Of a stretch of DNA of 25,462 nt, positions 8,791-15,337 are shown piece by piece. The notes below the pieces were generated by a model. That model searched no databases, had not been told where the DNA came from, and saw only the letters and a program-made list of their open reading frames with translations. Numbering within the stretch: position 1 is the first letter of the stretch; every line of letters begins with the position of its first letter. A program made the translations under genes and the position numbers. The DNA is from a virus, in IMG/VR virus record IMGVR_UViG_3300041403_000140, positions 1 to 25,462 of that record; one strand, 5' to 3'.

Positions 8791-9019
8791 GACCAAATTC
8801 CTTTCTAATCTTTTCAAAAGATTTTGAATTAAGTTCATGTGTAAGTGATTCAACTGTATGACCAGGATATTCGTGAATCATATGGGCAGCAATATATTGA
8901 TTTGCTCTAGCCTGACGAGACAGAATCCATCCTATCATTACACCTCGAAGAATGTTTTTAATTACTCTCCAAAATCCGTTAAGCAGACTCTGTGAGTAGT
9001 TCAGCGCTATTGTTGTCAT
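8783..9019 (-). CDS. Small hypothetical protein (78 aa) downstream of hsp20
   Basis: This 78-residue protein starts at the ATG at 9019 with GAGG 7 nt upstream and overlaps the hsp20 end by 41 nt. Residues 12-35 (LLNGFWRVIKNILRG, then VMIGWILS) form a moderately hydrophobic, basic segment that could be one membrane helix or an amphipathic helix. The C-terminal half is polar and helical (HEYPGHTVESLTHELNSK). I know no function. The tight packing with hsp20 and the next small gene suggests one transcript. Confidence 0.65.
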   Translation of the reverse strand: MTTIALNYSQSLLNGFWRVIKNILRGVMIGWILSRQARANQYIAAHMIHEYPGHTVESLTHELNSKSFEKIRKEFGRA

Positions 9020-9443
9020 TTTTTACCTCGTTGTTTCCAATAGAAATTTTACGAGGCAGCTTTTCTTCTGGAAGAATGACTTCAAGTTTGACAGTCAAGA
9101 TTCCGTCCGTTAGATCAGCTCCGGATACTTCGGTATATTCCGACAGTCTGAATGACTTGCTCCAATTTCGAGCACTGATACCTTTATGAACATAAAGTTC
9201 TTGAGGACGACGCATTGGTCTATCACCTTTGATAGTCAATACATGGTCTTTAATCTCAATGTCAATGTGTTCTTTACTAAATCCAGCCACTGCTAATTCG
9301 ATTTCGTAATGATACGCATCGTGTTTAACTACGTTATGTGGTGGATAGGTATCCTTCGCGTGGCTGTGAATGTTTTCCAGCTGATCGAAGATGTGGTCGA
9401 AACCAAGAAATGCGTTTCGTGGCAATAAAGTTGCTTTAGTCAT
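8979..9443 (-). CDS. hsp20: Small heat shock protein Hsp20 (IbpA-like)
   Basis: This 154-residue alpha-crystallin-type chaperone is expected to hold unfolding proteins, perhaps capsid or replication proteins, during infection. The alpha-crystallin domain spans about residues 36-125, with the beta strands YHYEIELAVAG and HVLTIKGD and the conserved GILTVKL at 114-120. The C-terminal I-x-I anchor for oligomer assembly is ISI at 133-135. Small Hsp20 genes are known in marine T4-like phages. The ATG has a near-perfect AGGAGGT site, but that site is predicted to be paired in a hairpin, and the gene carries a long structured leader behind its own late promoter. Confidence 0.95.
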   Translation of the reverse strand: MTKATLLPRNAFLGFDHIFDQLENIHSHAKDTYPPHNVVKHDAYHYEIELAVAGFSKEHIDIEIKDHVLTIKGDRPMRRPQELYVHKGISARNWSKSFRLSEYTEVSGADLTDGILTVKLEVILPEEKLPRKISIGNNEVKNDNNSAELLTESA

Positions 9444-9447
9444 TGTG

Positions 9448-9567
9448 ACCTCCTGTTAAGCAAGGTTATGTTGTGGACCCGAATTATTCGGCATCCACTA
9501 GGTCATCACGGGAGCGTAACTCCAATAAACTATCACCGATTAGAGACAGAGGCTTTCCCGTGACTAC
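9448..9567 (-). promoter_or_regulatory. Structured 5' leader of hsp20; candidate ROSE-like RNA thermometer
   Basis: The leader runs about 120 nt from the predicted start near 9566 to the ATG. Hairpin I: TCACGGGA (9563-9556) pairs with TCCCGTGA (9513-9506), and the stem can extend by G.U and two more pairs across one mismatch. Hairpin II: GTGGA/TCCAC (9498-9494/9477-9473) then CCGAA/TTCGG (9491-9487/9483-9479) around a TAA loop. Hairpin III: ACCUUGCUUAACAGGAGGU (9466-9448) pairs ACCUU with GAGGU and CU with AG, leaving G9461 bulged and UAAC as loop, so the ribosome site is masked. UUGCU opposite AGGA with a bulged G is the ROSE element signature. No folding program was run. Confidence 0.6.
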
Positions 9568-9571
9568 TTTA

Positions 9572-9579
9572 TATTTATA
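9572..9579 (-). promoter_or_regulatory. T4-type late promoter for hsp20
   Basis: An exact TATAAATA on the minus strand (9579-9572) begins one base after the regA stop codon. With T4 late spacing, +1 falls near 9566, just where hairpin I of the leader begins. Confidence 0.65.
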
Positions 9580-9580
9580 T

Positions 9581-9997
9581 TTAAGACTTATTTCCAATAT
9601 TATATTTTGGTTGTAAAGTCCAATTATTTTTTTCTTTGAAAGGAATAATTTTAATCTGACGTAGAGGTGCTAGTGGCTTAGCCTTGTCTCTATTGTCAAT
9701 TGACACTAATCCCCAATCACTCATGAGTGTCGCTATCGTGTTACGACGCGCAACATCATTTTCTTCTAAGTTGGACTTTTTCCCATCGAGCAAAAAGAGT
9801 TCTTTGAAATGAACGATAAAGTATCGTCCTTGTTTGTGGAGGATATGGCAGGATTGAAAGAGTGTATTATCTTTTCGTGATGCCACGCCAATTCGAGTCA
9901 GTGTTTCTCTTACTTTCAGAAAATCATCAGGCTCGTTCAAAGTCACCTCAAGCATGGAGGCGGGTGTCCATTCAACTATATTATTTTCTTTTTCCAC
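9581..9997 (-). CDS. regA: RegA translational repressor
   Basis: RegA binds the start regions of early phage mRNAs and blocks ribosome access. The core matches T4 RegA almost residue for residue: DDFLKVRETLTRIG, SCHILHKQG and YFIVHFKE, then WTLQPKYNIGN at the C-terminus. The annotated start is a GTG at 9997 with AAGG about 10 nt upstream, giving 138 residues with a 14-residue N-terminal extension relative to T4. The ATG at 9955 (MLEVTL) would match the T4 N-terminus exactly but has no Shine-Dalgarno sequence; which start is used is open. The GTG start overlaps gp62 by 17 nt. RegA represses its own synthesis in T4, so the unusual start region is worth noting. Confidence 0.93.
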   Translation of the reverse strand: MEKENNIVEWTPASMLEVTLNEPDDFLKVRETLTRIGVASRKDNTLFQSCHILHKQGRYFIVHFKELFLLDGKKSNLEENDVARRNTIATLMSDWGLVSIDNRDKAKPLAPLRQIKIIPFKEKNNWTLQPKYNIGNKS

Positions 9998-11608: not shown

Positions 11609-11827
11609 CTAACCTTGTTCTTCAGAAGCTTCTTCCATAGCTGCTTCTTGTTCAGCCTGTTCGCACAGTTGAATAATTTGAATTGATTGATCGCGAAGAC
11701 CACCAATCGTGGAGAGTTCTTCTCCTTTAATTGCACCACGTTGAGTCATCGCGTCAATAACAGCAATCATAGAACGAGCTGTACGATTTGACAATTCACG
11801 TAGATTTGTTAGAGTCTCTGTCGACAT
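11609..11827 (-). CDS. Small helical hypothetical protein (72 aa) after gene 45
   Basis: This 72-residue, probably all-helical protein starts at the ATG at 11827, which has GGAG 7 nt upstream; an upstream in-frame start lies inside gene 45. It contains TLTNLRELSNRTARSMI, then a Gly turn (GAIKGEEL), a second helix (QIIQLCEQAEQEA) and an acidic tail ending EEQG. It shares the promoter of gene 45 and is the last gene before a terminator. It does not resemble RpbA or other T4 neighbours of gene 45 that I recall, and its function is unknown. Confidence 0.7.
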   Translation of the reverse strand: MSTETLTNLRELSNRTARSMIAVIDAMTQRGAIKGEELSTIGGLRDQSIQIIQLCEQAEQEAAMEEASEEQG

Positions 11828-12569: not shown

Positions 12570-14279
12570 TTATTTTATTCTCGAGAAATTTTTATCTTTG
12601 ATGAATTCGATTTTGTTTTCGAACTTACCATCAAGAATTTCTCCCTTATGAGAGATGATAAAGATATTTGTATCATCACCGAGTGTATAGAGAATCTTAA
12701 GTAGATTATCCACACCTTCATGGTCAAGAGAAGAATCAAATGTTTCATCTAACATAAGAAGATTTGTGGCTACACTATTCTTCATCTTAGCGATCTGTCT
12801 CCAAGTAAAGAGTAGAGACAGATCAATTCTTTGTTTTTCACCTTCAGAAAAAGAGTCATAAGTAAAATCGTCTCTGTGCCGAGAACGAATTGTCTCATTG
12901 AATTCTTCGTCTAAATTGAAGTGGACATAGAAGTCCAGTACTTGAAGATACTGATTGACTAACTTATTCATGACTGGAAGATACTGCTTGATAATCTTTG
13001 TTTTGATTCCAGTATCTTTGAGCATTTCACCTATAGCAGACTTATAAGAATATTCTTCATTTGATCTCATCTTATCGTCCATAAGAGAAGAAAGGTGTGA
13101 TTTAATATTCTCTAGTTCTTCTTCAGCAGCTTTTAAATCAGCGGTGGCTGATCCAGCGATATCTTTTCTGAGATCTCCAATCTCGCCTTGGAGCCTATTG
13201 ATTTGTTGTATGTTAGAATGTAAGCTACTTTGTTTGTCTCGTATCTCGGAAAGTGCGTCATTTGTTGTTGAAATAGATTGTTCAACTTGATCTGACTCTT
13301 CAGCGAGCTTACCCATAGCGCTTTGTAATTCTTTTGCTTTAGACTTAGCCGTGGAGAGTTTTTCATCTCGTCTTTCCGAATCAATATCTTGATCGCAGGT
13401 AGGGCATGTTTCATTTTCTTCGTAAAATTTCGCATCTTTAACGACTGTTGCCATTTGCTGTTTGAACTGCGCGTTGTATTGTAAGAGCGATTGTTTCCGG
13501 TTGTGAAGTTGGTTAAGTTCATTCTGAATATTGTCCTGTTTACCTTCAATATCTTTACTCAATTGAGAGTTTTCAGTTTCTAAACTGTCGATCTGATTAC
13601 GCTTTGTAGAGATCTGAGTTTCTTTATAAGTGATGGCTTCATCAGTAATTTTCTTGACGTCAGTAATGTACTTCTTTTGAGTATCGACTTTGTTTTTAGT
13701 TAAATCAATTTGGTAAGAAACATCTTTTAGTTTGTCTTTGATATGAGTAACTTCTTCTTTAAGTAATTGGTTCATCTTAGAGAAGACACCAATGTCAAGA
13801 AGATCCTCAATCACAAGTCTACGGCTGTGTGGATTCAACTGCATGAAAGGAACAAAGTTAGATGAACCGAGTACCACAACCTGATGAAAAGACTTGTGAT
13901 TGAGTTTAAGAATATTTTGTTCGAGAATACGCTGATATTCTTTGTTATGAGAAGACTGGTTAATCATCTCATCGTTTTTCCAGATCTCAAACTTGGCCGG
14001 TCTATCTCCACGCACGATCTTAAATTGAGAAGCACCAATTTTAAACTCTACTTCAACTAGACTACCTTTACCGTTTATTGAGTTAATAAGTTGAGGTTTA
14101 CCAATTTTTCGGTGTGCTTTACCAAAGAGACCAAACGATAAAGCATCTAACATGGTAGACTTACCAGAACCGTTTTGGCCAACTACGAGAGTAGTCTTAT
14201 GACGAGTCAGATCGATTTCTGTAAAGTTATTACCGGTTGATAAAAAGTTTTTATAACGAATTTTCTGAAAAATAATCAT
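12570..14279 (-). CDS. 46: Recombination endonuclease subunit gp46 (Rad50-like ATPase)
   Basis: This 569-residue SMC/Rad50-type ATPase is the partner of gp47 in processing DNA ends for recombination-dependent replication. Walker A is VVGQNGSGKST (32-42). A long coiled coil (about 170-430) is interrupted by the zinc-hook CPTC at 292-295. Near the C-terminus come the ABC signature SFSEGEKQR and the Walker B segment LLMLDETFDSSLD, followed by IFIISHKG with its switch histidine. The length is close to T4 gp46 (560). The ATG overlaps the gp47 stop as ATGA, so the two subunits are translated as a coupled pair. Confidence 0.96.
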   Translation of the reverse strand: MIIFQKIRYKNFLSTGNNFTEIDLTRHKTTLVVGQNGSGKSTMLDALSFGLFGKAHRKIGKPQLINSINGKGSLVEVEFKIGASQFKIVRGDRPAKFEIWKNDEMINQSSHNKEYQRILEQNILKLNHKSFHQVVVLGSSNFVPFMQLNPHSRRLVIEDLLDIGVFSKMNQLLKEEVTHIKDKLKDVSYQIDLTKNKVDTQKKYITDVKKITDEAITYKETQISTKRNQIDSLETENSQLSKDIEGKQDNIQNELNQLHNRKQSLLQYNAQFKQQMATVVKDAKFYEENETCPTCDQDIDSERRDEKLSTAKSKAKELQSAMGKLAEESDQVEQSISTTNDALSEIRDKQSSLHSNIQQINRLQGEIGDLRKDIAGSATADLKAAEEELENIKSHLSSLMDDKMRSNEEYSYKSAIGEMLKDTGIKTKIIKQYLPVMNKLVNQYLQVLDFYVHFNLDEEFNETIRSRHRDDFTYDSFSEGEKQRIDLSLLFTWRQIAKMKNSVATNLLMLDETFDSSLDHEGVDNLLKILYTLGDDTNIFIISHKGEILDGKFENKIEFIKDKNFSRIK

Positions 14280-15337
14280 ACGATTTCCAAAGCTTGAGCC
14301 TGAGTCATCAGGTCTCTCATCATCACTTTGATACGATCTTTATCGAGATCAGTATCCACGCCTTCGATATAGTCATCCATTAATTGCGGAGTGTCATCAA
14401 TTTCTAGGCCTTCGTCATCAACGTTTGATCCAATAAACTCATTAAAGTTTTCAGAGATCTTCAAATCATAGATGTCTTGATTCTGAATACGATCAATGAA
14501 TCTATCAAAAGCAAACGTATCACCCTTATCCACTACCACAACTTTGACGAACTTCTTGTCTAATACCGACGTATCATAATTATTATAATCTATTTCTTTG
14601 TCATTGTAAACAATTTTATGAAACAAAGTGTAAGGATTTTGAATTTTTTCTATTTCACGAGTTTCTGTATCGATAATGTGAAAGTACTTAGGATCATGAG
14701 CATCTGACCAGAAAAACTCCATTTGGCTACCGAGATACCAGACGTTGTCTTTACGAGATGAAACGTGAAAGTGGCCAGTCAATACCAATTCAAACCTTTC
14801 GAACAACTTATGGTTCATGCCATGATTGTTTTCAACACCACGCATGAGTTCAAAGCCACCAAGTTCTAAGTGACTGCCGAGCCAATCAGCTTTACAGTTA
14901 GCAATAAACTCCATAGACTTGTCATAGTTATCCTGACAGATCCACGGTAACATAGCAATCTTCAAAGAACCGTATTCCATCACAGTCGGTTCCATGATGA
15001 TATTGATTTCATTCATAAAGTGACCGAGTAGTTCTTTCAAACTGTTCATGTCATTGGTATTCTTAAAATACGTATCGTGGTTACCAGGAATGATATCCAT
15101 AACCATACCACGTTTACGCATCTCATTAAGAAAACATTTACGATTATGATTCAGCGCTTTGATATTAACTACTTTACGATTATCGTAATAGTCTCCAAGG
15201 TGTACGATCTGAGTAATACCTTGCTTCTCACATTCCGGAAAGAAAACGTTCTTATAAAAGTCTTCAGCGTTATCTAGAAAGATTTGAGATGAGTTACGAA
15301 TTCCGCAGTGAGTATCATTTAAGACAGCGATCTTCAT
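14276..15337 (-). CDS. 47: Recombination endonuclease subunit gp47 (Mre11-like nuclease)
   Basis: This 353-residue metallophosphoesterase nuclease has the full set of motifs: NDTH (D8, H10), GDYYDNR (D49), GNHD (85-88) and GHFHVSS (H189, H191). With gp46 it resects double-strand breaks and supplies 3' ends for UvsX/UvsY-driven recombination. The length matches T4 gp47 (339). The ATG overlaps the gp55 stop as ATGA, and its own stop overlaps the gp46 start in the same way, so gp55, gp47 and gp46 form one coupled operon downstream of the gp55 promoter. Confidence 0.96.
   Translation of the reverse strand: MKIAVLNDTHCGIRNSSQIFLDNAEDFYKNVFFPECEKQGITQIVHLGDYYDNRKVVNIKALNHNRKCFLNEMRKRGMVMDIIPGNHDTYFKNTNDMNSLKELLGHFMNEINIIMEPTVMEYGSLKIAMLPWICQDNYDKSMEFIANCKADWLGSHLELGGFELMRGVENNHGMNHKLFERFELVLTGHFHVSSRKDNVWYLGSQMEFFWSDAHDPKYFHIIDTETREIEKIQNPYTLFHKIVYNDKEIDYNNYDTSVLDKKFVKVVVVDKGDTFAFDRFIDRIQNQDIYDLKISENFNEFIGSNVDDEGLEIDDTPQLMDDYIEGVDTDLDKDRIKVMMRDLMTQAQALEIV

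Follow-up and report, generated by a model that had tools for sequence, protein, structure and literature searches.

The 25,462 nucleotides that we analyzed (hereafter the window; IMG/VR virus record IMGVR_UViG_3300041403_000140) are a fragment of a T4-like aquatic phage. They encode the portal protein gp20, a scaffold protein, the capsid protein gp23, UvsW, gp46, gp45, gp44, gp62, RegA, a small heat-shock protein (Hsp20), and the DNA polymerase gp43. The hsp20 gene (8979..9443, minus strand, with its ATG at 9443-9441) encodes 154 amino acids and matches Pfam HSP20 (PF00011, E=2e-16) and phrog_432. It is inserted between regA and gene 43, inside the T4 replication cluster (46-45-44-62-regA-hsp20-43), and its upstream neighbor encodes a regA-type translational repressor (9581..9997, minus strand). 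T4 late promoters read TATAAATA, and this -10 motif is present at 9572..9579 (minus strand).

The part of the leader that adjoins the gene contains two hairpins. Hairpin II (9448..9466, minus strand) reads ACCTTGCTTAACAGGAGGT, and in it the anti-Shine-Dalgarno strand ACCUUGCU pairs with AGGAGGU, which includes the Shine-Dalgarno sequence AGGAGG (9449..9454, minus strand). The pairs are, in order, A-U, C-G, C-G, U-A, U.G, a bulged G (G9461), C-G, and U-A, and the loop is UAAC. A preliminary description of the window, which suggested a ROSE-like RNA thermometer at this site, had given just this pairing for 9466-9448, and on re-reading it is exact, including the bulge and the loop. The core motif of ROSE elements, U(U/C)GCU, is UUGCU here and faces AGGA (9459..9463, minus strand). 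Hairpin I (9473..9498, minus strand) has the form GUGGAU-G-CCGAA...UUCGG-GUCCAC: GUGGAU pairs with GUCCAC (the innermost pair is U.G), then comes a bulged G (G9492), and CCGAA pairs with UUCGG. So in both hairpins a U.G pair lies beside a bulged G and is followed by C-G. The ROSE-like class is recognized by a stable upstream hairpin, by U(U/C)GCU imperfectly paired with the Shine-Dalgarno sequence in the hairpin nearest to it, by a bulged G inside that helix, and by a position in the 5' UTR of a small heat-shock gene; the window has hairpin I at 9498-9473, the imperfect pairing of UUGCU, G9461, and hsp20 downstream.

The preliminary description also mentioned two further long hairpins. Both exist, but only hairpin I belongs to the conserved element. 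The larger one (about 69 nucleotides, 9499..9567, minus strand) lies between the promoter and hairpin I, and it is absent from all of the relatives that we checked except for one related contig (L014) and a contig that is nearly identical to the window. A 17-nucleotide piece of it recurs unchanged in L001/L088 (the near-identical contig) and L014/L552, and once in a coding context that is unrelated (L551). Because only one further relative has a copy, we view the larger hairpin as a lineage-specific insertion that lies outside the conserved element, and we rejected it as a part of the thermometer.

When Rfam was searched at its curated thresholds, there was no match anywhere in the window. When the leader was scored permissively, the sole meaningful match among 4227 families was ROSE_3 (RF02523; 30 bits, E=1.4e-4). 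The match runs from 9500 to 9438 and covers positions 1-69 of the model's 69, which is its full length with both hairpins. The gathering threshold for ROSE_3 is 43 bits, so we call the window's element ROSE-like rather than a curated member of ROSE_3. The leaders of other phages score 28-34 bits against ROSE_3 (31-34 bits for relatives); as controls, Pseudomonas leaders score 69-79 bits with ROSE_3 and Salmonella ibpA scores 95 bits with ROSE_2. Thus, the covariance search that the preliminary description proposed bears out its ROSE assignment as far as the full-length match and the resemblance to Pseudomonas ibpA go, but not at the curated 43 bits. We conclude that 9498-9438 (minus strand) is a ROSE-type translational control element, which most likely would be gated by heat.

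We fetched three sets of loci from IMG/VR by the similarity of the Hsp20 proteins alone: relatives of the window, of pelagiphage Mosig, and of cyanophage S-RSM4. By a simple rule that is independent of any covariance model, both hairpins are present in 52 of 52, 54 of 54, and 56 of 56 distinct leaders from these protein-selected sets (162 of 162 in total), as compared to 22 of 768 control gene starts. (We left freshwater leaders that were selected by pattern out of this estimate of chance, because that pattern already requires some of the motif to be present.) Together with the ROSE_3 match, these counts show that the structure is not a product of chance. Among the relatives of the window, CTTGC..GGAGG..ATGA is found in all 80 loci. 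A covariance model built from 29 leaders of this set (R1) recovers 80 of 80 relatives, including 12 divergent leaders that were kept out of the model; these 12 have E<=2.4e-4, and 11 of them are below 1e-6. Similarly, model R2 recovers 79 of 79 pelagiphage-type loci at the leader, and found this set unaided, while R3 recovers 77 of 77 cyanophage-type loci at the leader, although some cyanophage leaders were used in building it. Across 267 distinct leaders, every one has the U(U/C)GC core facing GGA, and this invariant core leaves the bulged G without a partner in all 267. The preliminary description stated that its reading would fail if the pairing of UUGCU with the ribosome-binding site were not conserved; we found the opposite, and the flanking pairs covary as well.

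The evidence that the pairing itself is under selection comes from compensatory changes, which the preliminary description had suggested looking for in related hsp20 leaders. In hairpin I, 8-9 of the 10 pairs have changed on both sides, and 92-93% of the cells in the alignment are paired; in the model-fitted alignment of the window's relatives, two-sided change is seen in 8 of 10 hairpin I pairs. In a broader alignment of 105 matches (four of which are probably due to chance), 13 of 17 pairs show two-sided change, with 302 two-sided cells as compared to 92 in shuffles and 45-61 if the structure is shifted by a single base. Alignments that are fitted to a covariance model lean towards that model, so we also did a count that avoids this bias by taking the U(U/C)GC and GGA words as its only anchors. 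By this count, the pair just outside of the core (C-G in 165 leaders, G-C in 56, and U.G in 43) is kept in 99% of the 267 distinct leaders, versus 66% in a shuffled control (maximum 74%). If we consider just the 62 distinct motif pairs, the flanking pair is kept in 97%, versus 76% when shuffled. These leaders are related to each other, so none of these counts are of independent events. In cyanophages, the Shine-Dalgarno sequence is GGAC and the strand facing it is GUC, which is a two-sided change within the ribosome-binding helix. So the pairs covary both in hairpin I and beside the core of hairpin II, and these patterns show that selection on pairing has kept both hairpins across very different phages. 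Such conservation proves that the RNA is structured, but it does not tell us what triggers it.

Another feature of some marine and freshwater leaders is a short sequence (AGUCA or GUCAU) that is complementary to the start region AUGAC(U) and lies either 5' of CUUGC or within the hairpin II loop (e.g., L035, L043, L072, L134, and L162). Among freshwater leaders, it is present in 25 of the 41 whose start is AUGAC as compared to 1 of the 20 with other starts, with related clades counted together. It is possibly a second lock on the start codon.

The late promoter is also shared. The motif TATA[AT]ATA occurs upstream in 49 of 56 distinct leaders, as compared to a background of 0.9% in upstream stretches used as controls. 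Of these 49, 48 have it ending 54-61 nucleotides ahead of the ATG, directly 5' of hairpin I, so the mRNA probably starts at hairpin I. (In the window, the inserted hairpin keeps the motif apart from hairpin I.) This fits with the preliminary description's view of hsp20 as a late gene, as a TATAAATA-type promoter adjoins the element in most of the relatives.

How widespread is the element in phages? In scans of whole records, 24 of 26 viral records match, one to three times each and once in most of them, and wherever the reading frame was checked, the matches sit at hsp20 or dnaK. Among cultured phage genomes, 10 of 13 match once, at hsp20 (HTVC008M, Mosig, HTVC115P, S-RSM4, S-SKS1, Syn33, Melnitz, C48C1, Phosso, and Atu_ph07). 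These include cyanophages, pelagiphages, a Methylophilales phage, and rhizobial jumbo phages. In the cultured phage S-B68, the element is degenerate, and the hsp20 leader of Vibrio phage IBT_VpB-34 has no trace of it. In S-CAM3 (L380, 730-840), a UCGCU..AGGAG core precedes an in-frame ATG that is upstream of the annotated start of hsp20, and it looks as if the annotated start is too far downstream. There are also three records (MG065691, MG065686, and OQ572409, or H8, H9, and H11) that comprise two unannotated "Campylobacter phage" and the unverified "Pseudomonas phage Y7." The two "Campylobacter phage" records match as well as Salmonella IbpA does, and the "Pseudomonas phage Y7" record contains an ibpA of the Pseudomonas type, together with a full ROSE_3 at 69 bits. 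These are probably host DNA in phage records.

The element is not confined to hsp20. HSP70 is encoded by exactly 3 of the 25 viral records that were searched for it, and in each of the three, the element lies directly before dnaK. All three contigs also have the element before hsp20: the matches are at 471854-471791, 469890-469825, and 63993-64058 in G011 (L351, L340, and L348), at 26646-26707 in G022 (L349), and at 14267-14333 in G024 (L350). The dnaK and hsp20 copies neighbor each other in G011 and G022, and one of the three contigs is 524 kb and encodes a terminase. Also, members of one clade have a second copy ahead of a gene of about 90 amino acids (phrog_13789), which in L124 lies between gp45 and gp44. 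In this copy, hairpin II reads ACUUUGCAAAGGAG. These second copies are at 5411-5478 in L091, 5441-5507 in L109, 2973-3039 in L123, 4946-5012 in L124, 5779-5845 in L133, 2921-2987 in L161, 1678-1744 in L201, 11178-11248 in L203, 5164-5230 in L111, and 1146-1212 in L173. The window has an apparent homolog of this gene between gp45 and gp44 (11609-11827, minus strand; we judged the homology by eye), with no element in front of it.

Some bacteria have the element as well. With R2, we found it in 15 of 385 alphaproteobacterial genomes, mostly of 1.1-1.6 Mb and about 30% GC, before hsp20. One of the elements in these 15 genomes is before dnaK (L362, G219:C5:13736-13801) and another is before a gene similar to rpoH, which encodes sigma-32 (L373, G246:C1:128723-128780). 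In one order of Alphaproteobacteria, 12 of 18 genomes have it. Given their genome size, we infer that these small AT-rich bacteria are SAR11-like. Among Gammaproteobacteria, 1 of 369 genomes has the element, and R3 gave no matches in 194 cyanobacterial genomes, where its sensitivity is limited. A loose pattern scan of bacterial genomes gave mostly chance matches, of which only those in Pseudomonas and Aurantiacibacter survived the covariance model. The likeness of the phage and host elements before hsp20 suggests either shared descent or strong convergence.

The small AT-rich Alphaproteobacteria have the same two-hairpin layout and core as the phages, but before cellular genes. Otherwise, the closest bacterial form is the ROSE-like thermometer of Pseudomonas ibpA (ROSE_3, RF02523; PMC3669281). 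Both elements consist of two hairpins in about 65 nucleotides, directly before a gene for a small heat-shock protein, and both have a hairpin I of the type GAUGCCGAA..CGGGUC with a matching bulged G. They differ in that the phage hairpin II is shorter or differently closed, the window's ROSE_3 score is 30 bits as compared to the curated 43, and the phage element often adjoins a T4-type late promoter and is also found before dnaK and the 90-amino-acid gene. ROSE_2 (RF01832), from enterobacterial ibpA, likewise has a hairpin with U(U/C)GCU and the Shine-Dalgarno sequence before ibpA, but it has more upstream hairpins, and the phage leaders do not match its model. In Pseudomonas, experiments showed that hairpin I of the ibpA leader stays closed while hairpin II melts as the temperature rises from 25 to 42 C (PMC3669281).

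Hairpin II of the window, folded in isolation, has a predicted energy of -6.7, -5.2, -3.8, and -3.2 kcal/mol at 15, 25, 37, and 42 C. At 37 C, it is slightly weaker than its counterparts from the Pseudomonas ibpA leader (-4.8 kcal/mol) and Salmonella ibpA (-4.6 kcal/mol), and the medians for groups of hsp20 leaders range from -1.7 to -4.2 kcal/mol. These modeled energies are compatible with a thermometer but prove nothing. When whole leaders are folded with nearest-neighbor energies, the Shine-Dalgarno sequence is more hidden than in control genes only in the cyanophages, and not in the marine, pelagiphage, or freshwater sets. The result also depends on the stretch that is folded: in the window, the Shine-Dalgarno sequence is about 72% unpaired if 20 nucleotides of coding sequence are included, versus 1-5% with 6-9 nucleotides. 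The same approach does not predict any opening of the positive control from Pseudomonas (0.30 unpaired at 10 C and 0.22 at 42 C). For this reason, we set whole-leader folding aside as a test of the thermometer, and its outcome does not count as a negative. Finally, open-water hosts seldom meet strong heat shock, which counts against heat gating.

The heat-opened gate, as modeled on the Pseudomonas ibpA leader, is the best-supported mechanism. We think it likely that this is a two-hairpin, ROSE-type element that resembles those of the hosts by descent or strong convergence and that controls the translation of phage hsp20, and of dnaK in some phages, in response to heat. At the normal temperature of the host, hairpin II would bar ribosomes. 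Upon warming, hairpin II would open while hairpin I would remain closed, and Hsp20 would then be made when proteins, including new capsid proteins, are at risk of misfolding. In some phages, the element would have been placed or retained before dnaK as well.

A different signal is conceivable: the leader might mainly bind Hsp20, from the phage or the host, so that Hsp20 represses its own translation until misfolded protein titrates it away, and the aggregation of proteins in the infected cell, not temperature as such, is sensed. Bacterial IbpA does repress its own mRNA via a 5' UTR that contains a ROSE element, and this requires Arg93 and an aromatic residue at position 34 (PMC10474464). That system, which has been shown for bacterial IbpA only, resembles ours in the type of leader, the downstream protein, and these key residues. 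The window's Hsp20 contains GISARNW (with the equivalent of Arg93) and TYPPHN (with the aromatic residue at position 34). The equivalent of Arg93 is kept in 54 of 58 marine, 37 of 37 pelagiphage, and 54 of 55 cyanophage proteins (distinct sequences) and in 62 of 62 from the pattern-selected set, and the aromatic residue is kept throughout the phage Hsp20s. Furthermore, Vibrio phage IBT_VpB-34, whose Hsp20 is the only cultured one that we examined with an element-free leader, has serine in place of this arginine, and copies of the element before dnaK and another gene would fit a shared operator. However, Arg93 is conserved in proteobacterial small heat-shock proteins in general, so it does not discriminate, and at the position of Lys98, another residue that is required in E. 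coli, the phage proteins have Ser, Ala, Asn, or other residues. As the main mechanism, we hold self-repression to be possible but would not bet on it; it may coexist with melting by heat, and we take it seriously as a complement. A still broader idea, which we rate as rather unlikely, is a post-transcriptional chaperone regulon of phages, in which one element on hsp20, dnaK, and phrog_13789 is shared with the host but now independent of it, and heat and the titration of free Hsp20 open its copies in concert.

Alternatively, there might be no switch; hairpin I would then do no more than guard the late mRNA at its 5' end, and hairpin II would do no more than set a fixed low rate of translation. 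In most of the relatives, the late transcript is predicted to begin at hairpin I, the stabilization of mRNA by 5' hairpins has been discussed for Pseudomonas (PMC3669281), and energy models give little response to temperature. But a fixed rate gives no reason for all 267 leaders to keep the exact U(U/C)GC/GGA core with a bulged G, or for an association that is almost entirely with chaperone genes, and the close bacterial relative is a switch by experiment. So static control seems improbable to us. We give almost no credence to the idea that the structure is not an RNA thermometer of any kind and is instead an operator for RegA, a terminator, or a promoter feature at the DNA level beside regA. 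It is true that the window's hsp20 is directly downstream of regA, but in Melnitz, HTVC008M, Mosig, Phosso, and Atu_ph07, the element precedes an hsp20 that is away from regA. Also, it is found before dnaK and in bacterial hsp20 leaders, hairpin I is not followed by a run of U's, and the compensatory changes include G.U pairs, as is expected for RNA. These occurrences at a distance from regA, ahead of other genes, and in bacterial genomes led us to reject all three readings.

In the openly accessible literature that we searched, we found no report of a ROSE element in a phage, which agrees with the preliminary description, whose author knew of no example. By the description in PMC4166951, ROSE elements invariably accompany the small heat-shock genes of bacteria. 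One RNA thermometer of a different type is already known from a phage: the lambda cIII thermosensor has two alternative conformations, and its ribosome-binding site is open at the lower temperature (Altuvia et al. 1989, summarized in PMC4166951). Like the cIII leader, the phage ROSE-type leader would gate the access of ribosomes by temperature, but no ROSE motif has been reported for cIII, which controls lysogeny. So, judging from sequence comparisons, the phage ROSE-type element appears to be a new setting for a known type of RNA.

Of the Hsp20-encoding phage records that we examined, most have the ROSE architecture ahead of hsp20, including those of cultured T4-like phages of Synechococcus and Pelagibacter. 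These leaders richly document how the ROSE fold covaries, down to a compensatory change within the ribosome-binding site. Phage chaperones have long been puzzling passenger genes, and heat gating would be a concrete and testable answer as to how and when they are switched on. It would imply that the infection programs of phages can respond to temperature or to folding stress without a protein regulator. And if the broader regulon were real, then RNA would give the phage a direct reading of the state of protein folding in the infected cell.
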